Below, one piece after another: positions 43,072-58,933 of a stretch of 64,000 bases of DNA; position 1 is the stretch's first letter, and the number at the start of each line of letters is the position of its first letter. The notes below the pieces were generated by a model that saw only the letters and a list, made by a program, of their open reading frames with translations, ran no database searches and had not been told where the DNA came from. This DNA is from Actinomycetospora cinnamomea (GTDB lineage: Bacteria; Actinomycetota; Actinomycetes; Mycobacteriales; Pseudonocardiaceae), in contig NZ_QEKW01000013.1 in assembly GCF_003096675.1 (NCBI RefSeq), forward strand, positions 62,001 through 126,000, in the 5' to 3' direction. Both the position numbers and the translations under genes were made by a program.

Positions 43072-43087
43072 CGCACCGGTGCGCCAA

Positions 43088-43097
43088 TGTCTCGACG
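43088..43097. promoter_or_regulatory. Sulfur-island element, copy 1 (one mismatch)
   Basis: TGTCTCGACG, followed by TTAGG, matches TGT-N4-ACA in five of six fixed bases. It lies 11 bases before the GntR start, which looks leaderless, so it could be an autoregulatory site overlapping the -10. Confidence 0.45.
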
Positions 43098-43107
43098 TTA
43101 GGCTGGG

Positions 43108-43920
43108 GTGGTGCCGAAACGCGCCGTCGACCGCCAGAGTCCCGTCCCCCTGTGGTCCCAGGTCCAGGACGATCTGCGCCGGCGCCTGTCCGAGGGAGAG
43201 TTCGACACCGTCTTCCCCGGCGAGAACGCGCTCGTCACCGACTACGACGTCAGCCGCAACACGGTGCGCGAGGCGTTGCGGGGGCTGCGCGCCGAGGGCC
43301 TCGTCACGGCCGAGCGGGGACGTGCCCCGAGGGTGCGGCGCGCGGAGATCGAGCAGCCCGTCGGCACGCTCTACAGCCTGTTCGCCTCCGTCGAGGCCGC
43401 GGGCCTGACGCAGCGCTCCGACGTGCGGGTGCTCGACGTGCGGGCCGACGGCGTGGTGGCGGCCCACCTCGGGCTCGAGGAGTCGACCCCGCTCGTGCAC
43501 CTCGAGCGCCTGCGCCGGGCCGGCGACGCGCCGCTCGCCGTGGACCGTGTCTGGCTGCCCGCCACGGTCGCCGCTCCCCTGCTCGATGCCGACTTCACCC
43601 ACACCTCGCTCTACACCGAGCTCGCCGCACGCACCGGCACGCGGCTGGAGTCCGGGCACGAGCGCATCAGCGCCCAGGTCCCGACGGAGGGCGAACGGAA
43701 GCTGCTCGAGTGTGGCGAGGACGTCGCGGTCTTCGTCATCGAGCGCACCGGCATCGCCCAGGGACGACCACTCGAGTGGCGCCAGACGATCGTGCGCGGC
43801 GACCGTTTCGCCTTCGACGCCCGGTTCTCGGCGCGCGGTCTCCATCTCGCCGTCGCCCCACCCGCCCCGCCACCGTCGCCCCCGCCCGCCCCGGTGATGC
43901 CCACGGCCGCCGGGACCTGA
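43108..43920 (+). CDS. GntR-family regulator with UTRA domain (HutC type)
   Basis: 270 residues. The N-terminal winged helix at about 12-75 (PLWSQVQDDLRRRLSEGEF, YDVSRNTVREALRGLRAEGLV) precedes a UTRA ligand-binding domain at about 95-240 (LVHLERLRRAGDAPLAVDRVWLP, LEWRQTIVRGDRF). A Pro-rich tail ends it. GntR/HutC proteins bind GT...AC palindromes, and TGT-N4-ACA elements precede it and the sulfur genes that follow, making it the best local candidate for their regulator. The GTG at 43108 (or 43111) has no ribosome site. The ligand is unknown. Confidence 0.9.
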   Translation: MVPKRAVDRQSPVPLWSQVQDDLRRRLSEGEFDTVFPGENALVTDYDVSRNTVREALRGLRAEGLVTAERGRAPRVRRAEIEQPVGTLYSLFASVEAAGLTQRSDVRVLDVRADGVVAAHLGLEESTPLVHLERLRRAGDAPLAVDRVWLPATVAAPLLDADFTHTSLYTELAARTGTRLESGHERISAQVPTEGERKLLECGEDVAVFVIERTGIAQGRPLEWRQTIVRGDRFAFDARFSARGLHLAVAPPAPPPSPPPAPVMPTAAGT

Positions 43921-44002
43921 GTCCCGGGAGGTCCGGACCTTCGACCCCGAGGGTGAGGACTTCCGGCGGGACGGGACCGACCCGGGCCGGTGTTCCCTCA
44001 GA

Positions 44003-44014
44003 TGTCAGTACATT
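44003..44014 (+). promoter_or_regulatory. Sulfur-island element, copy 2, overlapping a -10
   Basis: TGTCAGTACATT contains TGT-N4-ACA and ends in TACATT, a good -10 (TANNNT), 22 bases before the CstB-like start at 44036. A near DosR-like sequence (43934-43947, one mismatch) lies further upstream. Confidence 0.55.
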
Positions 44015-44035
44015 TCCTGCCGCTGAGGAGACGCC

Positions 44036-45418
44036 GTGTTCTTCGCCCAGTACTACCTCGACTGCCTCTCCCAGGCCTCGTACATGATCGGGGACGAGAC
44101 CACCGGACAGGCGGTCGTCGTCGACCCCCGCCGCGACGTGGCCGAGTACCTCGCGGACGCCCGGCACCACGACCTCACGATCGTGGGCGTGATCGACACG
44201 CACTTCCACGCCGACTTCCTCGCGGGACACCTCGAGCTCGCGCGCGCCACGGGCGCCTGGATCGGCTTCGGGCGACGTGCCGAGGCCGACTACGAGATCC
44301 GCCACTTCGCCGACGGGGACCGCATCCCGCTGGGGGAGGTCGAGCTCAAGGTGCTCGAGACGCCCGGCCACACCCCGGAGTCGATCAGCGTGCTGGTCCG
44401 CGAGCACGCCGGTGACGCCGTCCCCTACGGCGTCCTCACGGGCGACGCCCTGTTCATCGGCGACGTCGGCCGCCCGGATCTGCTCGCCTCGATCGGCTGG
44501 ACGAGCGAGGACCTCGGGCGGATGCTGCACGCCTCGATCACCCGTCTGATGACCCTGCCCGACGACGTGCGGGTCTTCCCCGCCCACGGCGCCGGCTCGG
44601 CGTGCGGGAAGAACCTGTCCACCGAGCGTTGGTCGACGATCGGCGCGCAGCGGGCCACGAACTACGCCTGCCAGCCGATGAGCGACGAGCAGTTCCTGGC
44701 CCTCGTCACCGCCGACCAGCCCGCGGCGCCCGCCTACTTCCTGCACGACGCCGTGCTCAACCGGCGCGAGCACCCCGTCCTCGACACCTCCGCGGCCCCG
44801 ATGCCGCTGGAGCTCGAGGAGGTGCTGGAGCGCCGGCGGGCGGGAGCGGTGATCCTCGACGCCCGCGAGCCCGCCGAGTTCGCGGCGGGCCATCTGGCCG
44901 GCTCGCTCAACGTGCCCGCCGACGGGCGCTTCGCCGAGACCGCCGGCTCGGTCGTCCGGCCCGACGAGGAGATCGTCGTGGTCGCCCCGCAGGACCGCGA
45001 GGAGGAGATCGTCATCCGTCTCGCCCGCATCGGGTTCGACCGCGTCACGGGCTACCTGCGCGAGCCCGAGGGCGCGTTCCTCGCCGCCGGCGACGAGGTC
45101 CGCCCGGCGAGCCGGCTGACCACCGCAGAGCTCGCCCGGGCGCTGGACTCGGAGACCCCGCCGACCGTGCTCGACGTGCGCAACCCCGGCGAGACCGCGG
45201 TCGGGGGCACCGTGCCGGGCGCCCTCACCATCCCGCTGGCCGCCCTGCCCGCCCGTCTCGACGAGGTCCCCACCGATCGCCCGGTCGTGGCGTACTGCGC
45301 GGGCGGCTACCGCTCGAGCGTCGCGGCGAGCCTGCTGCGGCGGGCCGGCCACGCCGACGTCTCCGACCTGCTCGGCGGCTACGGCGCGTGGACGCTGCTC
45401 ACCCCGCAGCCGGCCTGA
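44036..45418 (+). CDS. cstB: CstB-like persulfide dioxygenase-sulfurtransferase
   Basis: 460 residues. An ETHE1-like metallo-beta-lactamase domain (1-240) has the iron site THFHAD (H56, H58, D60) with H65. Two rhodanese-like domains follow: one at about 255-355 lacking the cysteine, one at about 365-458 with the active loop CAGGYR (C421). This order, dioxygenase then inactive then active rhodanese, is that of CstB, which turns persulfides into sulfite and thiosulfate. GTG at 44036 with GAGGAG. Convergent with sqr, separated by a 24-base-stem hairpin. Confidence 0.9.
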   Translation: MFFAQYYLDCLSQASYMIGDETTGQAVVVDPRRDVAEYLADARHHDLTIVGVIDTHFHADFLAGHLELARATGAWIGFGRRAEADYEIRHFADGDRIPLGEVELKVLETPGHTPESISVLVREHAGDAVPYGVLTGDALFIGDVGRPDLLASIGWTSEDLGRMLHASITRLMTLPDDVRVFPAHGAGSACGKNLSTERWSTIGAQRATNYACQPMSDEQFLALVTADQPAAPAYFLHDAVLNRREHPVLDTSAAPMPLELEEVLERRRAGAVILDAREPAEFAAGHLAGSLNVPADGRFAETAGSVVRPDEEIVVVAPQDREEEIVIRLARIGFDRVTGYLREPEGAFLAAGDEVRPASRLTTAELARALDSETPPTVLDVRNPGETAVGGTVPGALTIPLAALPARLDEVPTDRPVVAYCAGGYRSSVAASLLRRAGHADVSDLLGGYGAWTLLTPQPA

Positions 45419-45437
45419 TCCCCCGGGTGCGCCTCCG

Positions 45438-45489
45438 GCGCTCGTGAGCAGGAAGAAGTGCTCCGGCACTTCTTCCTGCTCACGAGCGC
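45438..45489. terminator. Bidirectional terminator hairpin with 24-base perfect stem
   Basis: GCGCTCGTGAGCAGGAAGAA continues to a 24-base arm (45438-45461) that pairs perfectly with 45466-45489 across a TCCG loop. It lies between the convergent CstB-like and SQR genes. No U-tract follows; the very long stem suggests strong bidirectional termination. Confidence 0.85.
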
Positions 45490-45507
45490 GTCAGCGCACC
45501 CCCTCAG

Positions 45508-46704
<1,197 letters not shown>

Positions 46705-46723
46705 GGGTGGCCCTCCTCACATA

Positions 46724-46733
46724 TGTAGGGACA
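46724..46733 (-). promoter_or_regulatory. Sulfur-island element, copy 3, at sqr promoter
   Basis: On the minus strand TGTCCCTACATA, holding a perfect TGT-N4-ACA. A possible -10, TATGTT, lies at 46738-46743, so the element would cover the transcription start, 20 bases before the sqr ATG. Confidence 0.55.
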
Positions 46734-46888
46734 GCCCAACATAAGAGGCACCCCTCGCACGGGCAAGGACGGGCCCGACCGACATCGGTGGGTCCTTGGA
46801 CCCTTGTCGCGGGCGCCCACCTGTACCAACCTCTGCGTCCGCTCCGGGCATCTCGCGGGCGGAGGGGGTCGGGGTGAGGAGAACGCGC

Positions 46889-48409
46889 GTGACCGCCTGG
46901 CGCCGCACCGTGCTGCGGGACGTGGTGGCCGGGCTGAGCGTGGCGATGGTCGGCATCCCGCAGTCGTTGGCGTACGCCGAGCTCGCCGGGATGCCGCCCG
47001 TCGTCGGCCTCTACGCGGGCGCGCTGCCGCCCCTCGTGGCCGCGGTGTTCGCCTCCTCGCCGTACCTGCAGACCGGTCCGGTGGCGGTGACGGCCCTGCT
47101 CACGTTCGGAGCGCTGAGCACCGTCGCCGTGCCCGGCAGTCCGGAGTACGTCGGGCTCGGCCTCGCCCTGGCGCTGCTCGTCGGCGCGGTGCGGGTGCTG
47201 CTCGGGCTCCTGCGCGCCGGATGGCTGGCCTACCTCATGTCGCAGCCGATGTTGCTGGGGTTCGTCCCCGCGGCGGCGCTGCTGATCGCCGGCTCGCAGC
47301 TGCCCAGAGCGCTGGGAGTGACGGCGCCGGCACCGTTCGGCAACGAGATCCTCGACGCCGGCTGGGCCCTGGCGGGACCCGACCGGTGGGCGGTCGCCGC
47401 GGTCGTGGCGTCGCTCGTCACGGCGGCGATCGTGCTGGGCGGGCGCCGCCTGCACGCCCTGTTCCCGGGCGTCCTGGTCGCGGTCGTCGCCGGGGTCGCG
47501 GTCTCCGCGGCCGGCCTCTACCCCGGGGCCACCGTCGCCTCCATCCCCACCGGGTTGCCGCCGTTCACGCTCACCGCGATCCCGTGGTCGTCGCTGCCGG
47601 CGCTGGCCCTGTCCGGGGTGCTCATCGCGCTGGTCGGCTTCACCGAGGCCGCGTCGATCTCGCGGCGCTTCGCCGCCGAGGAACGCACCCGCTGGAGCGC
47701 CGACCGGGAGTTCGTCAGCCAGGGCGCGGCGAACCTGACCGCCGCCGCGTTCGGCGGCATGCCGTGCGGCGGGTCCTTCTCGCGCAGCTCGGTCAACCGC
47801 ATGTCCGGGGCCGCCACGCGGCTCTCGGGCGGTGTCACCGGCCTGGCGGTCCTCGCCTTCCTGCCGGTCGCCTCGGTGCTGGAGCCCCTCCCCACGGCCG
47901 TGCTCGGGACGATCGTCGTGGTCGCGGTGGTCAACCTGATGCGGTTCGGGCCGTTGCTGGCGCTCTGGCGTGTCTCGGTCCCGCAGGCGATCGTCGCCTG
48001 GGGCACCTTCCTCGCCACGATCCTGCTCGCGCCACGGGTCGACCTCGGCGTCCTCGTGGGGATCGGGCTCTCGCTGCTGGTGTTCCTCGCACGGATGCTG
48101 CGGCTCGACGTCGACACCCACGTCGAGGACGGCGTGATCACGTTCCGGCCGCGTGGCGTGCTCTGGTTCGGCACCGCCCAGGAGCTGGACACGGCCCTGC
48201 TCGACGCGCTCGCCGAGCACACCGACGCCACGGCGCTGGTGATCGACCTCGAGCGCCTCGGCCGGATCGACACGACGGGGGCGCTCGTCCTGCGCTCGGT
48301 GCTGGACCAGGCGCGCGCGGCCGGTCTGACCGCCGAGGCCCGCGGCATCCCGCCGCAGTCGGAGGACCTCACCCGGCGTGTCCTGACCTCGCGGAGCTCG
48401 CTGTCGTGA
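46889..48409 (+). CDS. SulP-family anion transporter with STAS domain
   Basis: 506 residues. About 11 TM helices from residue 10 to 420, with the SulP signature region VVAGLSVAMVGIPQSLAYAELAGMPPVVGLYAG; a C-terminal STAS domain follows (about 425-505, LVIDLERLGRIDTTGALVL). It would move sulfate or a related anion across the membrane. I chose the GTG at 46889 with GAGGAG seven bases upstream; GTG at 46874 is an alternative. Divergent from sqr and 84 bases upstream of the ferredoxin-NrfD gene. Direction (import or sulfate release) unknown. Confidence 0.88.
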   Translation: MTAWRRTVLRDVVAGLSVAMVGIPQSLAYAELAGMPPVVGLYAGALPPLVAAVFASSPYLQTGPVAVTALLTFGALSTVAVPGSPEYVGLGLALALLVGAVRVLLGLLRAGWLAYLMSQPMLLGFVPAAALLIAGSQLPRALGVTAPAPFGNEILDAGWALAGPDRWAVAAVVASLVTAAIVLGGRRLHALFPGVLVAVVAGVAVSAAGLYPGATVASIPTGLPPFTLTAIPWSSLPALALSGVLIALVGFTEAASISRRFAAEERTRWSADREFVSQGAANLTAAAFGGMPCGGSFSRSSVNRMSGAATRLSGGVTGLAVLAFLPVASVLEPLPTAVLGTIVVVAVVNLMRFGPLLALWRVSVPQAIVAWGTFLATILLAPRVDLGVLVGIGLSLLVFLARMLRLDVDTHVEDGVITFRPRGVLWFGTAQELDTALLDALAEHTDATALVIDLERLGRIDTTGALVLRSVLDQARAAGLTAEARGIPPQSEDLTRRVLTSRSSLS

Positions 48410-48429
48410 CCCCGGGACCTTCGACTTCT

Positions 48430-48441
48430 TGTCCCAACATT
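48430..48441 (+). promoter_or_regulatory. Sulfur-island element, copy 4
   Basis: TGTCCCAACATT holds TGT-N4-ACA. Followed by GGTACCCATG, it aligns base for base with the site at 58345 (TGTCGGTATGTT-GGTACCTATG), giving the same 19-base distance to an ATG. Confidence 0.6.
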
Positions 48442-48493
48442 GGTACCCATGTCACACTCCGGCTCCCAGGGCCGTCGAGGAGGGGGGCGTCCT

Positions 48494-50032
48494 GTGCGCT
48501 ACGGATTCGCGATCGACCAGACCACGTGCATCGGCTGCCATGCCTGCACGGTGGCGTGCAAGACCGAGCACCAGGTGCCGGTGGGCCAGTTCCGCACCTG
48601 GGTCAAGTACGTCGACCAGGGCACGTTCCCGAACAGCACCCGCGACTTCGGGGTGATGCGCTGCAACCACTGCACCGACGCCCCCTGCGTGACGATCTGT
48701 CCGACGCAGGCGCTCTTCCAGCGCGACGACGGCATCATCGACTTCGACCGGGACCGCTGCATCGGCTGCAAGAGCTGCATGCAGGGGTGCCCGTACGACG
48801 CGATCTACATCGACGAGGAGACGCACACCGCGGCCAAGTGCAACTTCTGCGCCCACCGCATCGACGACGACCTCGAGCCGGCGTGCGTCGTGGTATGCCC
48901 GACGCACTCGATCTGGGTGGGCGACCTGGACGACCCCTCGAGCGGCATCTCGCGCCTGGTCAGCTCCCGCCCGACCCAGGTCCGCTCCCCCGAGCAGAAC
49001 ACCGGCCCCAACGTGTTCTACCTCGGCGCCGAGCGTGCGGTGCTCGACCCGCTGGCCGCGCCGGCCGACTCCGGCTACATCTACTCGCGCCCGGACCGCC
49101 ACCGCGCCGACGTCGCGCGGGACATGGCGACCGACCCGGTGACGAAGGCCCGCACCACGCTGAACACCGCCCATCCCCGGCCCTGGGGCTGGCGGGTCAC
49201 CACCTACCTCTGGGCCAAGGGCGTCGGCGGGGGCGCGGTGCTGCTCGCCGCGCTGGCCCTGCTCCTCGGCGTGGACCTCGGCGTGCTCACCACGCTGGTC
49301 GCACCGGCGCTGGGCGTCCTGGGCACCGCGGTGACCGGCGGGCTCCTGGTCTGGGATCTCAAGCGCCCCGACCGCTTCTGGTACATCCTCACGAAGTCGA
49401 ACCCCCGCTCCTGGCTGGTGCTCGGCGCGTACGCGCTGGCCGCCTTCGCGGCGGTGTCGGGGGTGTGGCTGCTCTACGGCATCGCCCTCGAGACCGGGTT
49501 GCTCGCGGCGAGCCCGGTGGTCTGGACCGTGCTCGCGGTCCTCGGGATCCCGACCGGGCTGATGGTCGCGGGCTACACCGCGTTCCTCTTCGGCCAGGCC
49601 GAGGGCCGCGACCTGTGGCAGTCCCCCCTGCTGTTCTGGCACCTCGTGGTCCAGGCCGTCATGGTCGGCGCCGGCGCGCTGGCCGTCGCCGCGCTCGTCG
49701 CCGGCACGGACGCGGCCGGCGCGGCCCTGATCGTGCGCGCGCTGGTCGTCGCCACCGTCGTGCACGTGGCGATGCTGCTCGTCGAGTACCTCGGCCGGCA
49801 CGCCACGAGGGCCGCCGCCACCGCGGCACACCTGGTGACCCACGGCCGCTACGCGCGGCTGTTCTGGACCGCCGGCGTCGCCCTCGCGCTGCTCGCCGCC
49901 CTCGTCGCCCTCCCGGCCTGGGGCGGCGGGATGCTCGCACTCGCCGCCCTCGCCGGCCTGGCCGTCCAGGTGGCACTGCTGGCCTACGAATCCGTGTTCG
50001 TCCGCGCCGGTCAGGACCTCCCCCTGTCCTGA
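48494..50032 (+). CDS. Ferredoxin-NrfD fusion: electron-transfer and membrane anchor subunit (SoeBC-like)
   Basis: 512 residues. The first 230 form a four-cluster ferredoxin of the DmsB/SoeB type: CIGCHACTVACK, CNHCTDAPCVTICP, CIGCKSCMQGCPY, CNFCAHRI...CVVVCP. From about 235 there are eight or so TM helices of the NrfD type (KRPDRFWYILTKSNPRSW is characteristic). The two subunits are normally separate. It would pass electrons between the molybdenum subunit and the quinone pool. I chose GTG 48494 (GAGGAGG upstream); an in-frame ATG at 48449 exactly follows the promoter element and could start a leaderless form. Confidence 0.88.
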   Translation: MRYGFAIDQTTCIGCHACTVACKTEHQVPVGQFRTWVKYVDQGTFPNSTRDFGVMRCNHCTDAPCVTICPTQALFQRDDGIIDFDRDRCIGCKSCMQGCPYDAIYIDEETHTAAKCNFCAHRIDDDLEPACVVVCPTHSIWVGDLDDPSSGISRLVSSRPTQVRSPEQNTGPNVFYLGAERAVLDPLAAPADSGYIYSRPDRHRADVARDMATDPVTKARTTLNTAHPRPWGWRVTTYLWAKGVGGGAVLLAALALLLGVDLGVLTTLVAPALGVLGTAVTGGLLVWDLKRPDRFWYILTKSNPRSWLVLGAYALAAFAAVSGVWLLYGIALETGLLAASPVVWTVLAVLGIPTGLMVAGYTAFLFGQAEGRDLWQSPLLFWHLVVQAVMVGAGALAVAALVAGTDAAGAALIVRALVVATVVHVAMLLVEYLGRHATRAAATAAHLVTHGRYARLFWTAGVALALLAALVALPAWGGGMLALAALAGLAVQVALLAYESVFVRAGQDLPLS

Positions 50033-50061
50033 CCCCTGTCCCGACCACACCGGGAGAAGCG

Positions 50062-53000
50062 ATGACCGAGACCGCCCCCCGTGGCGCCGCCCCCACGCGG
50101 CCGGCGGCACCGTCGACACCGCCGGGGACACCGCCGGCGACACCGCCCGACGACACCCCGCCGCGCACCGAGCGGCACCCGCTGCCCGGGGCCCGGACCC
50201 ACGAGCACCTGCGCAACTTCCCGCCGGTCTCCGACTGGGACCACCACGTCGAGCACGACGCCCGGGCCCACCCGCGCAAGGTGCCGCGGGAGTACATGCT
50301 CGTGCCGACGACGTGCTTCAACTGCGAGTCCGCCTGCGGGCTGCTCGCCTACGTCGACAAGTCCGACCTGTCGGTCCGCAAGGTCGAGGGCAACCCCGCC
50401 CACCCCGGCTCCCGGGGCCGGAACTGTGCCAAGGGCCCGGCGACGATCAACCAGATCGACGACCCGGAGCGCATCCTGCACCCGCTGCGGCGCACCGGGG
50501 AGCGCGGCGGCGGGCAGTGGGAGCAGGTCAGCTGGGACACCGCGCTCGACGACGTCGCCGGACGCATCCGGGCCGCGATCCTCGAGGGCCGCCACGAGGA
50601 GGTCACCTACCACGTCGGGCGACCCGGCGAGGACGGCTTCGCCGAGCGGATGCTGCAGGCCTGGGGCGTCGACGGGCACAACAGCCACACCAACGTCTGC
50701 AGCTCGGGCGCCCGTCTCGGCCAGACCCTGTGGGGCGGGTTCGACCGGCCGTCGCCCGACCACAGCAACGCCAAGGTGATCCTGCTGTTCTCCTCGCACC
50801 TGGAGACCGGGCACTACTTCAACCCCCACGCCCAGCGCATCCTCGAGGGCAAGAGCGCCGGTGCGAAGCTGGTCGTCGTCGACCCGCGCATGTCCAACAC
50901 GGCCTCGCACGCCGACGTCTGGATGGCGCCGTGGCCCGGCAGCGAGGCCGCGATCCTGCTCGCCGTCGCGTCGTACCTGCTGCGGACCCGCCGCATCGAC
51001 CACGAGTACCTGCGGCGGTGGTTCAACTGGGAGACCTACCTCGCCGAGCTGCACCCCGGGGCGGCCACATCTGATCGGGCCGGCACGTTCGAGGCGTTCC
51101 TCGACCACCTCGAGGGCGACTACGCCGACTACACCTTCGACTTCGCGGCCGAGGAGTCCCAGGTCCCGGTCGAGCGCATCGAGGAGCTGGCCCGCCTGGT
51201 GGCCGACTGCGACCACCGGCTCTCGGCGCACATCTGGCGCTCGGCCGCGGCCGGCAACCTCGGTGGCTGGCAGGTGGCCCGCTGCCTGTGGTTCGTCCTC
51301 GCGCTCACCGGGTCGATCGGCACCCCGGGCGGGACCAGCCCCAACGGCTGGAACAAGTTCATCCCGCACGGCCCGGACGTGCCCGCCCACGACCACTGGA
51401 ACGCGCTGGCGTGGCCGCGCGAGTACCCCCTGTCGACCAACGAGATGTCGATCCTGCTGCCGCACTTCCTGCAGGAGGGGCGCGGCCGGCTCGAGGTCTA
51501 CTTCTCGCGGGTCTTCAACCCGATCTGGACCTACCCCGACGGCTTCACGTGGATGAAGACCCTGTCCGACCCGGGAAAGGTCGGGCTGCACGTCGCCCTG
51601 ACCCCGACCTGGTCGGAGACCGCCGAGTTCGCCGACTACGTCCTGCCGGTCGGCCACGCCACCGAGCGCCACGACACCCACTCCTACGAGACCCACGCCG
51701 CGAAGTGGCTCGGCTTCCGTCAGCCGGTCCAGCGGGTGGCCCGGGAGCGGCTGGGACGCCCCGTCGGCGACACCCGGGACACCAACCCGGGCGAGGTGTG
51801 GGAGGAGAACGAGCTCTGGTTCGAGCTCTCCTGGCGCATCGACCCCGACGACGCGCTGGGCATCCGCCGCCACTTCGAGTCGCCGTACCGGCCGGGCGAG
51901 AAGGTCACCGTCGACGAGTACTACCGCTGGATCTTCGAGAACCGGGTGCCCGGGCTCACCGAGAAGGCGCAGGCCGAGGGGATGACCCCGCTGGAGTACA
52001 TGCGTCGCTACGGGGTCGTCGAGGTCGCGACGGATCTCTACCGCCAGGACGAGCGCCTGCTCTCCGAGTCCGAGCTCTCCGGCACGGTGGAGGACACGTC
52101 GCCCGAGACGCGGGGGGTGCTGCGCACGCCGACCGACGACGACTCGGTGCCGCCGCTGATCGGCGAGGCCGGGGCGGTCGGGGTGCGCCACGCCGACGGC
52201 ACCGCGACCGCGGGCTGGCTCACCCCGTCGCGCAAGCTGGAGGTCTACTCCACGGCCATGCGCGACTGGGGCTGGCCCGAGCACGCGACCCCGGGCTACA
52301 TCCGCTCGCACGTCGCGCGCTCCGAGATCGACCTGGAGTCCGGCGAGCTCGTGCTCGTCCCGACGTTCCGGCTCCCGACGCTGATCCACACCCGGTCGGG
52401 CAACGCGAAGTACCTGAACGAGATCAGCAACTCGCACCCGCTGTGGCTGCACACCCGCGACGCGCAGCGCCACGGGGTGCGCACCGACGACCTCGTGCGC
52501 CTGTCCACCGCGATCGGCCACCTCGTCGCCCGCGTCTGGGTCACCGAGGGGATCCGCCCCGGCGTGTGCGCGCTGTCGCACCACATGGGCCGCTGGCGGC
52601 TGCACGACACCGAGGGCAGTCGCTGGGTGCAGGGCCTGGTCGACATCACCCACCCCGACGGGCCGGACACCTGGAAGCTGCGCTACCGCGGGGGCATCGA
52701 GCCCTTCACCTCCGACGACCCGGACTCCGAGAGGATCTGGTGGAACGACCCGGGCGTGCACCAGAACCTGGCGTTCGGGGTGCAGCCCGACCCGTGGTCG
52801 GGCATGCACTGCTGGCTGCAGAAGGTGCGGATGGAACGCGCGCACCCGGGCGACCGGTACGGCGACGTCTACGTCGACACCGCCCGCTCCCGCGAGGTCT
52901 ACCGGCAGTGGCTCGCGAAGACGCGCGCCACCATCGGCCCCGGCGGGCAGCGGCGCCCCGAGTTCCTCATGCGCCCGGTCAAGCCCCGTCGGCGCGCCTA

Positions 53001-53073
53001 CCGGGTCGACGGCGGCGACCAGCCGCCGCGGACCCCCGACCCGGCACCGTCCGAGGGCGGGGCGTCCGGATGA
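50062..53073 (+). CDS. Molybdopterin oxidoreductase catalytic subunit (SoeA/PsrA-like)
   Basis: 1003 residues of the DMSO reductase family. After a disordered Pro/Thr-rich lead, a [4Fe-4S] motif C85-x2-C88-x3-C92-x29-C122 is followed by the molybdenum site with cysteine about 213 (NVCSSGARLG), and the C-terminal cofactor-binding domain (SHHMGRWRLHD). No twin-arginine signal, so the subunit faces the cytoplasm as in SoeABC sulfite dehydrogenase, not like periplasmic Psr/Phs. Likely oxidises sulfite to sulfate or reduces a sulfur compound. ATG at 50062 with GGAGAAG. Coupled to mrp by ATGA. Confidence 0.88.
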   Translation: MTETAPRGAAPTRPAAPSTPPGTPPATPPDDTPPRTERHPLPGARTHEHLRNFPPVSDWDHHVEHDARAHPRKVPREYMLVPTTCFNCESACGLLAYVDKSDLSVRKVEGNPAHPGSRGRNCAKGPATINQIDDPERILHPLRRTGERGGGQWEQVSWDTALDDVAGRIRAAILEGRHEEVTYHVGRPGEDGFAERMLQAWGVDGHNSHTNVCSSGARLGQTLWGGFDRPSPDHSNAKVILLFSSHLETGHYFNPHAQRILEGKSAGAKLVVVDPRMSNTASHADVWMAPWPGSEAAILLAVASYLLRTRRIDHEYLRRWFNWETYLAELHPGAATSDRAGTFEAFLDHLEGDYADYTFDFAAEESQVPVERIEELARLVADCDHRLSAHIWRSAAAGNLGGWQVARCLWFVLALTGSIGTPGGTSPNGWNKFIPHGPDVPAHDHWNALAWPREYPLSTNEMSILLPHFLQEGRGRLEVYFSRVFNPIWTYPDGFTWMKTLSDPGKVGLHVALTPTWSETAEFADYVLPVGHATERHDTHSYETHAAKWLGFRQPVQRVARERLGRPVGDTRDTNPGEVWEENELWFELSWRIDPDDALGIRRHFESPYRPGEKVTVDEYYRWIFENRVPGLTEKAQAEGMTPLEYMRRYGVVEVATDLYRQDERLLSESELSGTVEDTSPETRGVLRTPTDDDSVPPLIGEAGAVGVRHADGTATAGWLTPSRKLEVYSTAMRDWGWPEHATPGYIRSHVARSEIDLESGELVLVPTFRLPTLIHTRSGNAKYLNEISNSHPLWLHTRDAQRHGVRTDDLVRLSTAIGHLVARVWVTEGIRPGVCALSHHMGRWRLHDTEGSRWVQGLVDITHPDGPDTWKLRYRGGIEPFTSDDPDSERIWWNDPGVHQNLAFGVQPDPWSGMHCWLQKVRMERAHPGDRYGDVYVDTARSREVYRQWLAKTRATIGPGGQRRPEFLMRPVKPRRRAYRVDGGDQPPRTPDPAPSEGGASG

Positions 53074-54194
53074 GCGTGCTGACGAGGCGGCGCGGCCCGG
53101 CCGTCGACCCCGCAGCGGTCCGCGCGGCCGTCGACGCCGTCGTCGACCCCGAGCTCGGGCGCCCGCTGGGTGAGCTCGGGGCCGTCGACGAGGTCACCCA
53201 CGGTCGCGGTGGGCGGGTGCTCGTCCGCGTCGCGACCCCCACCCACGACGTCGCCCCCGAGCTCGTCGCGGCGGTCCGGGCGGCCGCCGAGGGTGCGGGC
53301 GCGGGCCGGGTGGCGGTCGAAACGACGCCGATGACCCCGCGCCGGCGCGCGGAGCTCGCCGAGCGACTGGCCGCCGCCGCTGCGCCGCGGCCGGGTGGCC
53401 CCGCTCCCCGTGTCTACGCCGTGGCCAGCGGCAAGGGCGGCGTCGGCAAGAGCACGGTCACCGCCAACCTCGCGACGGCGCTCGCCGCGTCCGGGCAGCG
53501 GGTCGGCCTGATCGACGCCGACGTCTGGGGCTACTCGGTGCCCCAGCTGTTCGGCGTGCGCCGCCACCCGGTGGTGCTCGGCGAGAAGATGCAGCCGGTG
53601 CGCGCCCACGGGGTGGCGCTGATGTCGACGGGGTTCTTCGTCGACGAGGACGACCCGGTGATCTGGCGCGGGCCGATGCTGCACAAGGCGCTGCAGCAGT
53701 TCGTCACCGACGTGGCGTGGGGTCCGCTCGACGTCCTGCTGGTCGACCTGCCGCCGGGCACCGGCGACGCGACGCTCTCGGTGCTCGAGCTGCTGCCCGA
53801 CGCGGCGCTGCTCGCGGTGACCACTCCCCAGACGGCTGCGCGGGTCGTCGCCCGGCGTGTCGTGCGGATGGCCACGGAGTCCGGCGCGCCGCTCGCGGGT
53901 GTCGTGGAGAACATGGCCGGCACGGTCTGCGTCTCCTGCGGCGAGACCAGCGCGGTGTTCGGCTCCGGCGGCGGCGAGCTGCTCGCCGACGAGGCGGGCA
54001 CCACGCTGCTCGGCCGCGTCCCCCTCGACGTCCCGCTGCGCGAGGCGGGCGACCGGGGCGTGCCCGTCGTCCTCGACGCCCCCGGGGCGCCCTCGGCCCG
54101 CGAGCTCACCCGCGTCGCCGCCACCCTGCCCGCCCGGCGTCGCTCCCTCGTGGGCCGCGCCCTGCCGCTCACGGTGTGCGCTCCGCGCACATGA
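53070..54194 (+). CDS. mrp: Mrp/ApbC-type Fe-S carrier ATPase
   Basis: 374 residues. N-terminal DUF59/MIP18-like domain (VRAAVDAVVDPELGRPL), then the P-loop ATPase with deviant Walker A SGKGGVGKS and VDLPPGTGD; a CVSC pair near residue 290 binds the Fe-S cluster. It would deliver clusters to the cluster-rich neighbours. The ATG overlaps the molybdopterin subunit stop (ATGA), making a three-gene operon with the ferredoxin-NrfD fusion. No hydrophobic segments. Confidence 0.9.
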   Translation: MSVLTRRRGPAVDPAAVRAAVDAVVDPELGRPLGELGAVDEVTHGRGGRVLVRVATPTHDVAPELVAAVRAAAEGAGAGRVAVETTPMTPRRRAELAERLAAAAAPRPGGPAPRVYAVASGKGGVGKSTVTANLATALAASGQRVGLIDADVWGYSVPQLFGVRRHPVVLGEKMQPVRAHGVALMSTGFFVDEDDPVIWRGPMLHKALQQFVTDVAWGPLDVLLVDLPPGTGDATLSVLELLPDAALLAVTTPQTAARVVARRVVRMATESGAPLAGVVENMAGTVCVSCGETSAVFGSGGGELLADEAGTTLLGRVPLDVPLREAGDRGVPVVLDAPGAPSARELTRVAATLPARRRSLVGRALPLTVCAPRT

Positions 54195-54229
54195 GCGCTT
54201 CGAGGTGCTGGAGCACTCCGAACTGCTCA
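54193..54229. terminator. Imperfect hairpin between convergent genes
   Basis: TGAGCGCTTCGAGGTGCT and AGCACTCCGAACTGCTCA pair with four mismatches around a short GG loop, just after the mrp stop and 19 bases before the DUF202 stop. Probable bidirectional terminator of the same TGAGC-capped style as those at 45438 and 56566. Confidence 0.55.
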
Positions 54230-54247
54230 CGGGCGCGGTAGCGCGCC

Positions 54248-54592
54248 TCAGATCTCCGGCACCGCGAGCAGCAGCGTGACGACGCCGAACGCGACGACCA
54301 TGCCGGCGACCGCCGTGACCCCGACGGTGTCGGCGCGCACGTTCGCCGACCCCGCCACGACGGTGCGGCGGTGGCGACGCCGGCCGAGCAGGGCACAGGC
54401 CACCGCGGCGAGCAGGGCCAGGCCCGCCGGGACCCAGACGAGCAGGCTGCCGTTGCGGTTCGCCCGGAGGAGCAGCAGCGCCCCGTTGACCAGCATCGCC
54501 AGCGCCGTGCGGTCCCAGGAGAGCACCGTGCGCTCGGCCGGAAGCCCCGAGCGGTCCTGCAGGCGACGCGTTCGCGGGTCGAAAGCGCTCAC
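54248..54592 (-). CDS. DUF202 membrane protein, second of a pair
   Basis: 114 residues. ERTVLSWDRTALAMLVNGALLLL is the DUF202 signature; three TM helices at about 25-42, 50-68 and 88-108. Function unknown; one family member is yeast vacuolar YidH-like. The GTG overlaps the stop of the first DUF202 gene (GTGA). Confidence 0.82.
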   Translation of the reverse strand: MSAFDPRTRRLQDRSGLPAERTVLSWDRTALAMLVNGALLLLRANRNGSLLVWVPAGLALLAAVACALLGRRRHRRTVVAGSANVRADTVGVTAVAGMVVAFGVVTLLLAVPEI

Positions 54593-54987
54593 CGGGCCAC
54601 CACGATGAGCACCGCCACGGCCAGGGTGACGACCACCAGCCCGACGGTCAGTAGCAGCGGGAGCCGGCTGGGCGGCAGGTCCGCGTCCCGACGCATCGCC
54701 CGCTGGACGCGCTGCCAGCGCCGCAGCGCCATGACCGCGACCACGATCCCCAGCACGGCGAGCAGGCCGCCGACGATGTGCCGCGAGCCCTCGGGCCCGA
54801 ACTCGGGCACGAGCCCGGTCACGACCACGCCCCCCGCGATCAGCGCCAGCGCCGTGCGGTTCCAGGCGAGGAAGGTGCGCTCGTTGGCCAGGGTGAAGCG
54901 GTAGTCGGGCTCGATGTCGACCTCGGCGGGCTCGTCCGCCGCCCCGCTGGACGTGTCCCCGGACCGGGACCCCGTCGTCCGGCTCAT
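54589..54987 (-). CDS. DUF202 membrane protein (YidH-like), first of a pair
   Basis: 132 residues. A disordered acidic start precedes ANERTFLAWNRTALALIAGGV, the DUF202 core, and three TM helices (about 45-60, 70-88, 110-130). ATG at 54985-54987. It is divergent from the second CstB-like gene; two TGT-N4-ACA elements lie in the 205-base region between them, so it may share the sulfur control. Function unknown. Confidence 0.82.
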   Translation of the reverse strand: MSRTTGSRSGDTSSGAADEPAEVDIEPDYRFTLANERTFLAWNRTALALIAGGVVVTGLVPEFGPEGSRHIVGGLLAVLGIVVAVMALRRWQRVQRAMRRDADLPPSRLPLLLTVGLVVVTLAVAVLIVVAR

Positions 54988-55049
54988 CTCCGCCTCCCGG
55001 TCCGTCGGTCGCGGTCGGGGCTCCCGTCCCCGACCGCGCTCCCCTCAAG

Positions 55050-55061
55050 TGTCCCGACATT
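55050..55061 (+). promoter_or_regulatory. Sulfur-island element, copy 5
   Basis: TGTCCCGACATT holds TGT-N4-ACA. It is 63 bases upstream of the DUF202 start and 143 bases before the second CstB-like gene; the core is palindromic, so either side could be served. Confidence 0.5.
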
Positions 55062-55156
55062 CGGCGATTCCGGCACGGCACGCCACGCCGGTCCAGGAGA
55101 TCCCAGGCCTCGGGGGCGCGGACCATCGAGTTTGACGGGTGCCCTCGACCGTCCGT

Positions 55157-55168
55157 AATGTAGGGACA
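55157..55168 (-). promoter_or_regulatory. Sulfur-island element, copy 6
   Basis: Plus strand AATGTAGGGACA; minus strand TGTCCCTACATT, the same word as at 46724-46733. A plus-strand -10-like TAATGT overlaps it (55156-55161), 32 bases before the ATG at 55193. Confidence 0.6.
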
Positions 55169-55192
55169 TACCGACGACAAGGAGGTCGTTCC

Positions 55193-56554
55193 ATGCACGT
55201 CGAGGTGATCGCCACCGAGGCCCTCGGGGACCGCAGCTACGTGGTGCACGACGGCGAGGTCGCGCTCGTCGTCGACCCGCAACGCGACCTCGACCGCGTC
55301 CACGCGGTCCTGGCCGAGCAGGGTGTGCGGGTCGGCGCGGTCGCCGAGACCCACATCCACAACGACTACGTCACCGGGGGGCACGCCCTCGCCGCGGAGA
55401 TCGGGGTCGACTACCTCGTCAACGCCGAGGACCCGGTGACGTTCGACCGCCGGGGGGTCGCCGAGGGCGACGAGATCACGGTCGGAACCCTGCGCGTGCG
55501 GCCGGTGGCGACACCGGGTCACACCGTCACGCACCTGTCCTACGTCGTCGACGACACGGCGGCACCCGACGAGCCGGCCGCGGTCTTCACCGGCGGCTCG
55601 CTGCTGTTCGGCAGCGTCGGACGCACCGACCTCGTCGACGCCGCCCGCACGATCGAGCTGACCCACCACCAGTACCGCTCGGCCCAGCGGCTCGCCCAGC
55701 TGCCCGACGAGACCCGCGTGTACCCCACGCACGGGTTCGGCAGCTTCTGCTCCTCGGGCAACGCGACGGGCGCCGAGTCCAGCACGATCGGGGCCGAGCG
55801 CGCCGCCAACGACGCCCTGCTCGCCACCGACGAGGACAGCTTCGTCGAGACGCTGGTGGCGAACCTGACGGCCTACCCGCGCTACTACGCGCACATGGGG
55901 CCGCGGAACCTGGCCGGGCCGGACGCCGCCGACCTCTCGCCGGTGGCCGCGGTCGACCCGGACGAGCTGCGCAAGCGCATCGCCGACGGCGAGTGGGTCG
56001 TCGACCTGCGCGACCGCACCGCCTACGCCGCGGAACACGTCGGCGGCACGATCGGGATCGCGCTCGGCGGCCAGTTCTCGACCTACCTCGGCTGGCTGCT
56101 GCCCTGGGGCACGCCGGTGACGCTGATCGGGGACACCGCCGACGACGTCGCCGAGGCGCAGCGGCAGATGGCACGCATCGGCATCGACCGGCCGGCGGGC
56201 GCGGCCGTCGGCACCCCCGCCGAGCTGGCGCCCTCCGGCGACCTGCGCCACTACCCCAGGGCGACCTTCGCCGACGTGGCGGCACGGTCCGGGGCCGAGG
56301 CCGACGAGCCCGTGCTGGACGTCCGCCGCAACGACGAGCGCGCCCAGGGCGGCATCCTCGGCGCGACGCACATCCCCCTGCAGGACCTGCTGACCCGCCT
56401 GGACGAGCTGCCGGCCGGGCGGCTGTGGGTGCACTGCGCCTCCGGCTTCCGGTCCAGCATCGCCGCGAGCCTGCTCGACCGCGCCGGGCGCGACGTCGTC
56501 CTCATCGACGACGAGTACTCCCGCGCGGTCGAGCTCGGTCTCGCCACCGGCTGA
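55193..56554 (+). CDS. Second CstB-like persulfide dioxygenase-rhodanese protein
   Basis: 453 residues. A metallo-beta-lactamase domain with THIHND (H54, H56, D58, H64) and PVATPGHT; a cysteine-less rhodanese-like domain at about 250-345; a final rhodanese with CASGFR (C415). Same order as the protein at 44036, but the two differ greatly in sequence, so this is not a recent duplication. It would oxidise glutathione-, mycothiol- or protein-persulfide. ATG at 55193 with AAGGAGG. A 40-base palindrome follows before tauE. Confidence 0.88.
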   Translation: MHVEVIATEALGDRSYVVHDGEVALVVDPQRDLDRVHAVLAEQGVRVGAVAETHIHNDYVTGGHALAAEIGVDYLVNAEDPVTFDRRGVAEGDEITVGTLRVRPVATPGHTVTHLSYVVDDTAAPDEPAAVFTGGSLLFGSVGRTDLVDAARTIELTHHQYRSAQRLAQLPDETRVYPTHGFGSFCSSGNATGAESSTIGAERAANDALLATDEDSFVETLVANLTAYPRYYAHMGPRNLAGPDAADLSPVAAVDPDELRKRIADGEWVVDLRDRTAYAAEHVGGTIGIALGGQFSTYLGWLLPWGTPVTLIGDTADDVAEAQRQMARIGIDRPAGAAVGTPAELAPSGDLRHYPRATFADVAARSGAEADEPVLDVRRNDERAQGGILGATHIPLQDLLTRLDELPAGRLWVHCASGFRSSIAASLLDRAGRDVVLIDDEYSRAVELGLATG

Positions 56555-56565
56555 CCCCGTCCCAC

Positions 56566-56605
56566 GTGAGCGGAATTCACGGTGGTCACCGTGAATTCCG
56601 CTCAC
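56566..56605. terminator. 40-base near-perfect palindrome between CstB-like and TauE genes
   Basis: GTGAGCGGAATTCACGGT pairs with ACCGTGAATTCCGCTCAC around a GGTC centre, 12 bases after the stop. The AT-rich core stands out from its surroundings. It may end or weaken transcription into the exporter gene on the same strand. Confidence 0.7.
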
Positions 56606-56627
56606 GAGCCTGCGCCGAGGAGAACGT

Positions 56628-57434
56628 GTGACGCTCGCGCTCGAGATCGGCATCGGTCTCGTCATCGGGCTCGTGGTCGGTGCCCTGGGCGGCGGGGGCG
56701 GCGTGCTCACCGTGCCCGCCCTCGTCTACCTGCTCGGGGCGTCGACCCACGAGGCCGCCACGGCATCACTGGTCATCGTCGGCGTCGCCGCCCTGACCGG
56801 GCTTCCCGCGCACGCCTTCCGCGGCCACGTCCGCTGGCGTGCCGGGGTGGCCTTCGGGGCGGTCGGCACGGCGTCGGCCGTCGCCGGCACCGTCCTCGCC
56901 CGTGACCTCGATCCGTCGGTGCTGCTGCTCGCCTTCGCCGGGGTCATCACGGTGGCCGCCGTGCTCATGATCCGCGACGCCCGCCGTGGCGGGGACGAGG
57001 ACGACGCGGGGTCACCCCCCGCGGCCGCGCGGGGTCGCGCCCTGCGGCGCTCCCGCGTCCTCCGGTCGGCGCTCGTGGTCCTCGGGGGCCTCGCGGTCGG
57101 CCTCATGACCGGCCTGTTCGGCGTGGGCGGCGGTTTCCTCGCCGTCCCCGTGCTCGTGCTGGTCCTGCGGTGGCCGGCCCGCGCGGCCATCGGCACGTCG
57201 CTGCTGGTCATCGTGATCAACTCGATCGGCGCGCTCGTCCCACGCCTCGGAGCCGAGGCCCTCGACGCCCGGCTCGTGGTCCCGGTGACCGCCGCGGCCG
57301 TCACCGGCACCCTGCTGGGCAAACTCGCCGCCGACCGCGTCTCCACACCCTCCCTGAGCCGCGTCTTCGCCGCGTTGCTCCTGCTGCTCGCCGCGTACAC
57401 CGCGGTGCGGTCCGGCATCACGCTCGCGGCCTGA
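56628..57434 (+). CDS. TauE/SafE-family sulfite exporter-like membrane protein
   Basis: 268 residues with about eight TM helices and the internal repeat of the family: GALGGGGGVLTVPALVYLLG near the start and FGVGGGFLAVPVLVLVL near 165. Members export sulfite, sulfoacetate or related anions. GTG at 56628 with GAGGAG. Placement after a sulfite-producing persulfide dioxygenase supports removal of surplus sulfite. Possibly insulated by the hairpin before it. Confidence 0.87.
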   Translation: MTLALEIGIGLVIGLVVGALGGGGGVLTVPALVYLLGASTHEAATASLVIVGVAALTGLPAHAFRGHVRWRAGVAFGAVGTASAVAGTVLARDLDPSVLLLAFAGVITVAAVLMIRDARRGGDEDDAGSPPAAARGRALRRSRVLRSALVVLGGLAVGLMTGLFGVGGGFLAVPVLVLVLRWPARAAIGTSLLVIVINSIGALVPRLGAEALDARLVVPVTAAAVTGTLLGKLAADRVSTPSLSRVFAALLLLLAAYTAVRSGITLAA

Positions 57435-57497
57435 CGAACGGATGACGGCGCGCCGCGGCGCGGTTTCGGTGTCCTTCCGCCCCGGGCAGCCGCTCCC

Positions 57498-58289
57498 ATG
57501 GCAGCTGTGCACCGTGGAACGGATTCGCGCCCTCGGGGTCGGGGCCTCGCCTCGACCATCGGTGTCGGCGTCGCCTCCGGACTCGCCACCGCGGTCGGCG
57601 TGCTCGCCGGCCGGAAGGCGGCCACCCTCGCGAAGATCAGCCAGGGACATCCCCTGAAGCACCGGGTCCTCGATGCCGCGGCCGGCACCATCCAGCCGAA
57701 GTATCCGCTCGACGCGATGAGCACGTACCTCAACGGCTTCCACATGTACGCCGACGACATGGGGCGCCAGGTGGAGGCGTCGCACTTCTGCATCCACCTG
57801 CAGCCCGACCTGCACCAGTGCGTGATCTTCGACCGGAACGCGACGGACGCGCGGCTGATCGGGATCGAGTACATCATCAGCGCGGACCGTTTCCGCAGCC
57901 TGCCCGAGGACGAGAAGCGGCTCTGGCACAGCCATCACTACGAGGTCAAGTCCGGCGTGCTGGTCACCCCGGGCGTTCCGGAGCTCGCCTCGCGCGCCTA
58001 CTTCGAGGACCTCGTGACGACCTACGGGAAGACCTTCCACACGTGGCAGTACGACCGCGACGACTTCCCCTACGGCGTCCCGCAGCTGATGATGGCCTTC
58101 ACCCAGGACGGGCAGGCCGACGAGGCCCAGATCGCCGAGCGGGACCGGCGGGTCGGTGTCTCGAGCTCGCAGACGCGGCAGCGTCGTGCCGACATCCCCA
58201 CCCCCGACGTGCTGCCGGGCGCCAACCCGTGGGAGAGCGGGCGCACCGTGCAGACCACCCTGGAGGAGAGGCCGTTCCACCGGCCGTGA
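57498..58289 (+). CDS. DUF1264 protein, oil-body-associated protein-like
   Basis: 263 residues. A short hydrophobic N-terminal segment (about 17-37, TIGVGVASGLATAVGVLAG) precedes a DUF1264 core: YLNGFHMYADDMGRQVEASHFC, IGIEYIISADRFRSLPEDEKRLWHSHHYEVKSG (read in parts), TYGKTFHTWQ. The family includes plant oil-body-associated proteins; in bacteria the role is unknown. ATG at 57498 has no clear ribosome site. It may attach to a lipid surface. Why it lies in a sulfur island is not evident. Confidence 0.82.
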   Translation: MAAVHRGTDSRPRGRGLASTIGVGVASGLATAVGVLAGRKAATLAKISQGHPLKHRVLDAAAGTIQPKYPLDAMSTYLNGFHMYADDMGRQVEASHFCIHLQPDLHQCVIFDRNATDARLIGIEYIISADRFRSLPEDEKRLWHSHHYEVKSGVLVTPGVPELASRAYFEDLVTTYGKTFHTWQYDRDDFPYGVPQLMMAFTQDGQADEAQIAERDRRVGVSSSQTRQRRADIPTPDVLPGANPWESGRTVQTTLEERPFHRP

Positions 58290-58344
58290 CCTCCCGGTCG
58301 GGTGGCGACGTTCACGTGCGCCCCTCGTCGCCCGCGCCCTTGTA

Positions 58345-58356
58345 TGTCGGTATGTT
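58345..58356 (+). promoter_or_regulatory. Sulfur-island element, copy 7, with -10 for a leaderless gene
   Basis: TGTCGGTATGTT: the last six bases TATGTT make a -10, seven bases before the ATG at 58364, so the rhodanese mRNA is probably leaderless. The layout matches the site at 48430. The palindrome is weaker here (ATG instead of ACA). Confidence 0.6.
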
Positions 58357-58363
58357 GGTACCT

Positions 58364-58933
58364 ATGAGCACTCCCACCCGTCCCCTGCTCGACACCGCTG
58401 CCGTGCGCGCGCTGCTCGCGTCGCACCCCGGCACGCGCCTCATCGACGTGCGCAGCCCGGGCGAGTTCGCCGCCGCGCACATCCCGGGCTCCTACAACGT
58501 CCCCCTCGACCTGTTGCGCGAGCACCGCGACGAGCTCCGCGCGGAGCACGACGACCCGGTCGTGCTCGTCTGCGCCTCGGGCGCGCGAGCCGAGCAGGCC
58601 CGCGGCGTCCTCGACCGCACCGGCCTGGAACGGCTCGAGGTGCTGCGGGGTGGCGTCACCGACTGGCAGCGCGACGGCGGCCCGATCCGCGAGGGCGCGG
58701 GCACGTGGGCCATGGAGCGCCAGGTGCGGCTCACCGCGGGCTCGCTCGTGCTCGCCGGCGTGCTGGGCAGCCTGCGCTACCGACCCCTCGTCGCGCTCGC
58801 CGGCGTGATCGGCGCCGGCCTCACGTTCTCCGCCGTGACGAACACCTGCGGCATGGCGCGTCTGCTCGCCCTGCTGCCCCACAACCGCCGCGGTGCCCCG
58901 GACCCGGCCGCCGCCCTGGCCGCCCTGGCCTGA
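58364..58933 (+). CDS. Rhodanese with DUF2892 membrane tail
   Basis: 189 residues. Rhodanese domain at about 5-110 with active loop CASGAR (C70) and GGVTDWQRDG; then two TM helices of DUF2892 type at about 125-160 and a short tail. It would handle sulfane sulfur at the membrane, perhaps taking persulfide from SQR. The ATG at 58364 has no ribosome site but lies seven bases after TATGTT, so leaderless. Convergent with a USP gene; a small GC hairpin lies at 58946-58960. Confidence 0.88.
   Translation: MSTPTRPLLDTAAVRALLASHPGTRLIDVRSPGEFAAAHIPGSYNVPLDLLREHRDELRAEHDDPVVLVCASGARAEQARGVLDRTGLERLEVLRGGVTDWQRDGGPIREGAGTWAMERQVRLTAGSLVLAGVLGSLRYRPLVALAGVIGAGLTFSAVTNTCGMARLLALLPHNRRGAPDPAAALAALA

Follow-up and report, generated by a model that had tools for sequence, protein, structure and literature searches.

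A palindromic ATGT-N4-ACAT element as putative operator of a GntR/HutC-type regulator in a sulfur island of Actinomycetospora cinnamomea

For the handling of sulfide, persulfide and sulfite in actinobacteria, the circuit that we found described is of the CsoR type. In Streptomyces coelicolor, the persulfide dioxygenase (PDO) ScPDO converts glutathione persulfide (GSSH) to sulfite, and the CsoR-family protein ScCsoR, which works by cysteine persulfidation, acts through the operator ATACC-N6-GGTAT to repress its own gene as well as those of a PDO-rhodanese enzyme, a rhodanese and a sulfite transporter (PMC7533328). In Salmonella, YeiH confers sulfite resistance under the control of YeiE, a sulfite-binding, autoregulating LysR-type protein encoded divergently from yeiH (PMC12880088). 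Regulators of the HutC subfamily of GntR proteins bind sites mostly made of GT and AC four bases apart (consensus GTMTAKAC, PMC4494728), and in their relative NagR, whose half-sites are six bases apart, the inner G is recognised by Arg48, the outer one by Arg38 (PMC4333415). Here we analyse a stretch of 64,000 nucleotides from Actinomycetospora cinnamomea (contig NZ_QEKW01000013.1, positions 62,001 to 126,000; "the window"), in which a sulfur island encodes a GntR protein and carries a recurrent word, TGTCCCNACATT, in front of its genes. Neither a CsoR-family gene nor an operator of the form ATACCC...GGGTA was found between positions 40000 and 60000 of the window, where this island lies.

A sequence-only reading of the window had listed seven copies of this element and suggested that the GntR protein might control the gene set and itself; all seven are present in the sequence where it had placed them. 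We consider, with a probability of about 0.85, that the word is the operator of an autoregulated GntR/HutC-type repressor (43111-43920), released from its target promoters by a sulfur signal. Sequence comparison supports the palindrome, its targets, the link with one GntR clade, the overlap with promoters and the compatibility of the contact residues; physical binding, repression as its sign and the identity of the ligand are inferred. A GntR dimer would use its winged helix-turn-helix, with Arg49 on the inner G, to read two TGT half-sites separated by four bases (ATGT-N4-ACAT). Sitting over the -10 or the start point, it would hold cstB1, sqr/sulP, the ferredoxin-NrfD/molybdenum (Fd-NrfD/Mo) operon, DUF202, cstB2-tauE, the rhodanese gene and gntR low, until a rising sulfur metabolite fills the UTRA pocket, the repressor releases and the enzymes that clear sulfide, persulfide and sulfite are made.

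Judged by its recurring form in other genomes, where it lies upstream of the SQR and CstB2 homologs (for example ATGTCCGGACAT, ATGTCCGTACAT and ATGTACGGACAT), the element is better described as a palindrome, ATGT-N4-ACAT with the consensus AAATGTMCGKACATTT, the CCC centre being a flavour of the lineage. Since the core is palindromic, the strand of an element tells little. The GntR homologs used were the best 80 of 181 relatives from a GntR-alignment scan of the genome collection, which detects no relatives other than those with two peptide patterns in common. In an unbiased scan for gapped palindromes (256 half-sites by 13 gaps) in the roughly 200 bases upstream of these 80 gntR genes, ATGT-N4-ACAT ranked first of the 681 types observed, being present at 41 loci against 0.05 expected. 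The same spacing of GT and AC, four bases apart, is the one characteristic of HutC-type sites. Of the 64 exact palindromes within 1,250,882 bases around gntR homologs, 61 are located upstream of gntR, yeiH, cstB1/2 or sqr, regions that make up 3.5% of the bases, whereas eleven rearranged control palindromes gave 30 copies in the same bases, two of them upstream of regulon genes.

A weight matrix was trained on other genera alone (39 distinct sites), the five Actinomycetospora loci being left out. Its eight best places in the window are, in descending order, 44002, 55158, 55049, 58352, 46723, 48429, 43087 and 58344 (scores 24.0 to 4.9, listed below). All seven elements noted beforehand thus head the list, 58352 being a shifted register of the one placed at 58345. 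Thirty Markov windows gave a mean best score of 4.1 (maximum 17.2) and a mean of 0.13 places above 8, against five in the real window. As Markov scores reach their level, 48429, 43087 and 58344 are too weak to stand alone; the first recurs in locus L054, the second upstream of gntR in four other Actinomycetospora loci (L054, L056, L063 and L231), and L054 also has a site like that at 58352.

The presence of the operator is coupled to that of the regulator. We have compared 45 regions of 7.7-24 kb, comprising all places given by a CstB2 search (at least 50% identity, 18 genomes of the genus, 16 places) and by SQR searches in 120 genomes of the family (E 1e-60) and 348 of the order (E 1e-90), and a region was taken as GntR-bearing when it encoded a protein of at least 50% identity over at least 180 aa. 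A site scoring at least 15 was found upstream of SQR or CstB in 12 of 12 GntR-bearing regions and in one of 33 GntR-less ones (Fisher 4.5e-10, a nominal value). Looser thresholds of 10 and 6 raise the latter to 2/33 and 3/33, and a few further sites are placed away from SQR and CstB in GntR-less regions, where the best score over the whole region reaches 15 in 2/33. The exception, L055, has a gntR gene (81% identity) 0.8 kb beyond the edge of the analysed stretch, so that the corrected table at a score of 15 reads 13/13 against 0/32.

That another regulator, a persulfide sensor of the CsoR/CstR or ArsR type, binds the word and GntR is a mere neighbour would agree with the ScCsoR regulon of S. 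coelicolor described above and with the CsoR-family gene present in 20 of the 33 GntR-less regions (that of L066 is PF02583). These GntR-less loci, however, use a different palindrome, ATACCC...GGGTA (24/33, against a mean of 0.1 and a maximum of 1 in Markov copies, and 1/12 with GntR), which is similar to the operator published for ScCsoR and its like enzymes (PMC7533328), and 11 of the 12 GntR-bearing regions are without a CsoR gene. We regard this explanation as extremely unlikely. Regulator and operator instead change together, a swap of both on homologous enzymes. The CstB and SQR homologs of L066, L223-L229 and L201-L221, which have no GntR, often come with CsoR/CstR-like palindromes and a CsoR-family gene. 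The role of the GntR protein as operator-binding regulator of the set, the first of the two readings offered, is supported by comparison: the palindrome tracks the GntR clade across genera, has the HutC spacing, stands in front of gntR and is missing at GntR-less homologs.

The protein itself has the domain structure of the family, with a GntR winged helix (PF00392, 50.7 bits against a threshold of 27) and a UTRA domain (PF07702, 113.7 against 23.8), and its fold matches PhnF as well as YvoA/NagR and DasR (PDB 4u0v, 2wv0, 4wwc, 4zs8), these latter two at 24-27% identity. Named records with a matching GntR are those of A. lemnae (94% identity), A. chibensis (83%) and A. sp. NBRC 106375 (86%). 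The operator half-sites are six bases apart, as in NagR, and in our reading of the alignment NagR Arg48 corresponds to Arg49, which is invariant in 46 sequences. The outer G and Arg38 of NagR are in contrast replaced by T and Asn39; at this position the 80 homologs have 65 Leu, 5 Asn, 5 His, 4 Met, 1 Lys and no Arg. The central TA of the general HutC consensus is CG in these sites, often CC/GG in Actinomycetospora. In the ligand pocket, the phosphate-binding Arg133 and Arg135 of NagR are retained (invariant in the same 46), whereas the sugar contacts are altered (Phe89 to Leu90, Glu145 to Asp145, Tyr228 to Val228) and the targets are sulfur genes. A GntR that binds the word but answers mainly to a carbon or phosphonate ligand, the sulfur genes being incidental, could be argued from the sugar phosphates bound by the solved UTRA relatives (PMC4333415) and from the best NCBIfam matches, HutC (TIGR02018, 106 bits against a cut-off of 220) and PhnF (TIGR02325, 97 against 156.8); neither assignment holds, as both fall below the cut-off. 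We find it highly improbable, because cstB, sqr, tauE and yeiH recur as the targets over six named families, and no sugar or phosphonate genes were noticed adjoining the sites (neighbours were not exhaustively scanned).

The island contains genes for CMD, GntR/UTRA, CstB1, SQR, SulP, a fused Fd-NrfD, a Mo oxidoreductase, Mrp, DUF202, CstB2, TauE, DUF1264 and a rhodanese with a membrane segment. The name CstB has been taken over from the sequence-only reading (Pfam itself gives metallo-beta-lactamase plus rhodanese), and gene starts are partly inferred. Positions are those of the window.

43087..43098, putative operator 5' of gntR, ATGTCTCGACGT, score 6.6; proposed autoregulation; similar elements 5' of gntR in the four loci named above
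43111..43920, + strand, GntR/UTRA (HutC-type) regulator, 269 aa, proposed repressor; PF00392 and PF07702, fold matches
44002..44013, putative operator 5' of cstB1, ATGTCAGTACAT, score 24.0; cstB1 sites also in L054 and L063
44036..45418, + strand, CstB-type metallo-beta-lactamase/rhodanese protein 1, proposed persulfide dioxygenase/sulfurtransferase; Pfam Rhodanese, Lactamase_B
45508..46704, - strand, sulfide:quinone oxidoreductase (SQR) by best match; Pyr_redox_2; NCBIfam type III SQR NF049943, 224 bits, below the cut-off of 525
46723..46734, putative operator between sqr (-) and sulP (+), ATGTAGGGACAG, score 9.6; directly downstream of the sqr promoter-like pair
46889..48409, + strand, SulP-family anion permease with STAS domain; Sulfate_transp PF00916, STAS; start inferred (GTG, about 46889)
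48429..48440, putative operator 5' of the Fd-NrfD/Mo operon, TTGTCCCAACAT, score 7.4; retained in L054
48449..50032, + strand, fused 4Fe-4S ferredoxin-NrfD membrane protein; Fer4_11, NrfD; in-frame ATG 8 bases past the word
50062..53073, + strand, molybdopterin oxidoreductase, 1003 aa; Molybdopterin, Molydop_binding, Molybdop_Fe4S4
53070..54194, + strand, Mrp/ApbC-type P-loop Fe-S carrier; PF10609
54589..54987, - strand, DUF202 membrane protein; PF02656
55049..55060, putative operator 5' of DUF202, GTGTCCCGACAT, score 14.5; comparable DUF202 site in L055
55158..55169, putative operator 5' of cstB2, ATGTAGGGACAT, score 20.5; overlaps the -10 TAATGT (55156-55161; -35 TTGACG at 55132-55137)
55139..56554, + strand, CstB-type metallo-beta-lactamase/rhodanese protein 2 (Pfam), as the listed open reading frame; likely start ATG 55193
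56628..57434, + strand, TauE/SafE sulfite exporter family protein; PF01925
58344..58363, the word in two overlapping registers 5' of the rhodanese gene, scores 4.9 (58344) and 10.4 (58352); 58352-like site 5' of a rhodanese gene in L054
58364..58933, + strand, rhodanese with YgaP-like membrane segment; Rhodanese, YgaP-like_TM, scanned inside the longer open reading frame 57818-58933

In some places this map departs from the sequence-only reading. The positions of the elements stand, and so does the GntR gene it had placed at 43108, but the start of that gene is more likely the GTG at 43111, in agreement with the G008 copy. DUF202 and the second CstB, which it had listed together, have an element each (55050 for DUF202, on the minus strand, and 55157 for CstB2), and SulP faces SQR across the site at 46723. 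The best NCBIfam matches of the enzyme set at 48449-54194 are TtrB and PhsA, both below cut-off; candidate substrates are sulfite, polysulfide and thiosulfate.

The way in which the regulator would act may be glimpsed from the position of the sites relative to promoter-like sequences. A pair TTGACG-N17/18-TAATGT precedes cstB2 in five of six Actinomycetospora copies (the window, L054, L055, L056 and L063, but not L057), and in all three sqr copies compared (the window, L054 and L231) the word comes a few bases after a TTG-N17-TA...T pair, which in the window is TTGCCC-N17-TATGTT at 46766-46738 on the minus strand. The same simple search found no pair at cstB1, Fd-NrfD, gntR or DUF202. As the cstB2 operator overlaps the -10 and the sqr operator follows a promoter-like pair, the geometry is repressor-like. 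The word might alternatively be a conserved promoter element, either the extended -10 that the sequence-only reading had put forward as its second option or an alternative sigma factor box: several copies contain TACATT or TATGTT, the word is AT-rich inside DNA of 76% GC, the ATG starts at 48449 and 58364 follow it at a distance of 8 bases, as in leaderless promoters, and L057 has the cstB2 site without this -35/-10 pair. We consider this very unlikely, given the two-fold symmetry with N4 spacing, the opposite orientation of word and gene at cstB2, the recognisable separate -35/-10 pairs that overlap or precede the word, its coupling to the presence of gntR and the frequent pairing of sites, 23-24 bases apart, in other genera; the extended -10 is not supported as the feature shared by all copies. 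Autoregulation by the repressor is likely, since the element upstream of gntR recurs in the four other Actinomycetospora loci, and gntR and a divergent target share sites in other genera.

The number of copies of the word says much less than their location. Exact TGTCCCNACATT is present at three of the seven elements (48430 and 55050 on the plus strand, 55168-55157 on the minus strand). With up to two mismatches there are eight copies in the window, six of them among the seven, against 3.49 +/- 1.70 expected, and over 61 genomes (that of A. cinnamomea included) the exact word and its reversed control both match 10 times. As 3 of 100 shuffles also reach eight and the control equals the word over the 61 genomes, the raw count is weak evidence, and enrichment by word count alone was rejected. 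Six of those 10 matches fall in the island or in its counterparts in two genus mates. In the 5.97-Mb genome of A. cinnamomea itself (50 contigs), all three exact copies are inside the island (reversed control 1), as are four of the eight copies with up to one mismatch (reversed control 3) and two of the three exact ATGT-N4-ACAT. The word is therefore informative through its location and through the independent motif evidence, not through its copy number.

One place off the island stands out in the same genome. On its contig 4 (G000; 348702-348713; L068:3702), the one-mismatch word TTGTTCCTACAT scores 20.9 in the matrix and lies about 40 bases 5' of a second SulP permease (PF00916), which we predict to be a distant target of the operator; an acyl-CoA-synthetase-like gene (AMP-binding, PF00501) adjoins in the opposite direction. 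The other three of the four off-island one-mismatch words score below 5 and were put down to chance. A further scan of the genome, with a profile made from the site sequences alone and no positive control, returned nothing; as even the island went unreported, this result is uninformative.

Outside the genome of A. cinnamomea, in which no YeiH match was found, the regulon appears to extend to yeiH. A yeiH-like gene (PF03601, 224 bits; TIGR00698, 134 bits, below the cut-off of 232.6) adjoins the site in Amycolatopsis, Kutzneria, Umezawaea and some Actinomycetospora, and in Amycolatopsis and Kutzneria loci gntR is divergent from it, an arrangement like that of YeiE and yeiH, although the Salmonella regulator is of the LysR type (PMC12880088). 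A set of 18 hand-picked genomes has 16 copies of ATGTMCGKACAT, against 2 of the reversed control; 13 are beside yeiH, sqr, cstB2 or gntR, one precedes an MFS gene and two are partnerless within 1.5 kb. The MFS transporter, in an Amycolatopsis genome (L232:3191 and L102:8834-10216), has relatives that adjoin yeiH or gntR elsewhere. In L174 and L177, no sulfur, yeiH or gntR gene could be recognised within 1.5 kb of the two strict palindromes. Other Actinomycetospora (L155-L159) have, divergent from yeiH, a further GntR that is more distant (55-56% identity), with two sites 14 bases apart.

As to the signal, a sulfite-like small oxyanion is preferred over thiol persulfidation because the operator precedes yeiH widely, two NagR arginines are kept and several homologs are cysteine-free, and also because ScPDO yields sulfite and TauE belongs to a sulfite exporter family; sulfite as the ligand is nevertheless a tentative assignment, which we hold with less than even confidence. 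Cysteine sensing as the shared mechanism was rejected. Among the 80 homologs (L069-L148), 53 have one cysteine, 22 two and one three, usually around residues 171-193 or 196-203 although the position varies, and four (L078, L079, L080 and L141), like L057, have none. In a broader and rather doubtful scenario, the HutC-type repressors of a clade widespread in actinobacteria would detect an inorganic sulfur oxyanion, most likely sulfite, without cysteine, in a UTRA pocket that has kept the anion-binding arginines and lost the sugar contacts. This clade would have taken over the sulfide/persulfide operons run by CsoR/CstR elsewhere and, keeping its operator unchanged, would have switched partners between yeiH and sqr/cstB on several occasions. 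On the GntR tree, partner labels set by hand require nine changes over three labels, counts that are indicative only (23 "nosite" loci, of which 20 lack any site above 8 and L117, L118 and L137 have only a weak one; L079, L090 and L098 ungrouped).

Several observations weigh against the GntR repressor model. Repression as the sign depends on promoter-like pairs at two types of target, one of them absent in L057 though the site is present there. The phosphate contact Thr90 of NagR is Phe91 here, which weakens the argument from the anion pocket. Matrix scores are low at Fd-NrfD, gntR and the rhodanese gene, and the site centre in Actinomycetospora often departs from the wider CG. The p-values are affected by the relatedness of the genomes, some of those tested being possibly close to training species. 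While 60 of the 80 GntR loci have a site above 8 (only weak in L117, L118 and L137), 20 have none, mostly in Pseudonocardia and Actinokineospora groups; of the 11 among the hand-picked genomes whose GntR locus is siteless or, in one case, has a weak site, six hold no strict palindrome anywhere, and the remaining five have one, upstream of yeiH in four and at sqr with a second gntR in the other.

No earlier report of this GntR as a sulfur regulator was found among the matches listed in the open-access literature, the scope of our search (subscription papers and RegPrecise lay outside it), and the text of the HutC survey (PMC4494728) has no word starting with "sulf". For the way in which actinobacteria handle sulfide, persulfide and sulfite, the locus provides a regulator, an operator and a set of targets that can be put to the test, and it opens a regulatory approach to YeiH, a family that is poorly understood; were the ligand sulfite, HutC-type sensing would extend to small inorganic sulfur species.

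Within the island, long intergenic inverted repeats resembling strong terminators are found at 45438-45489 and 56566-56605, the first of which separates the convergent cstB1 and sqr.

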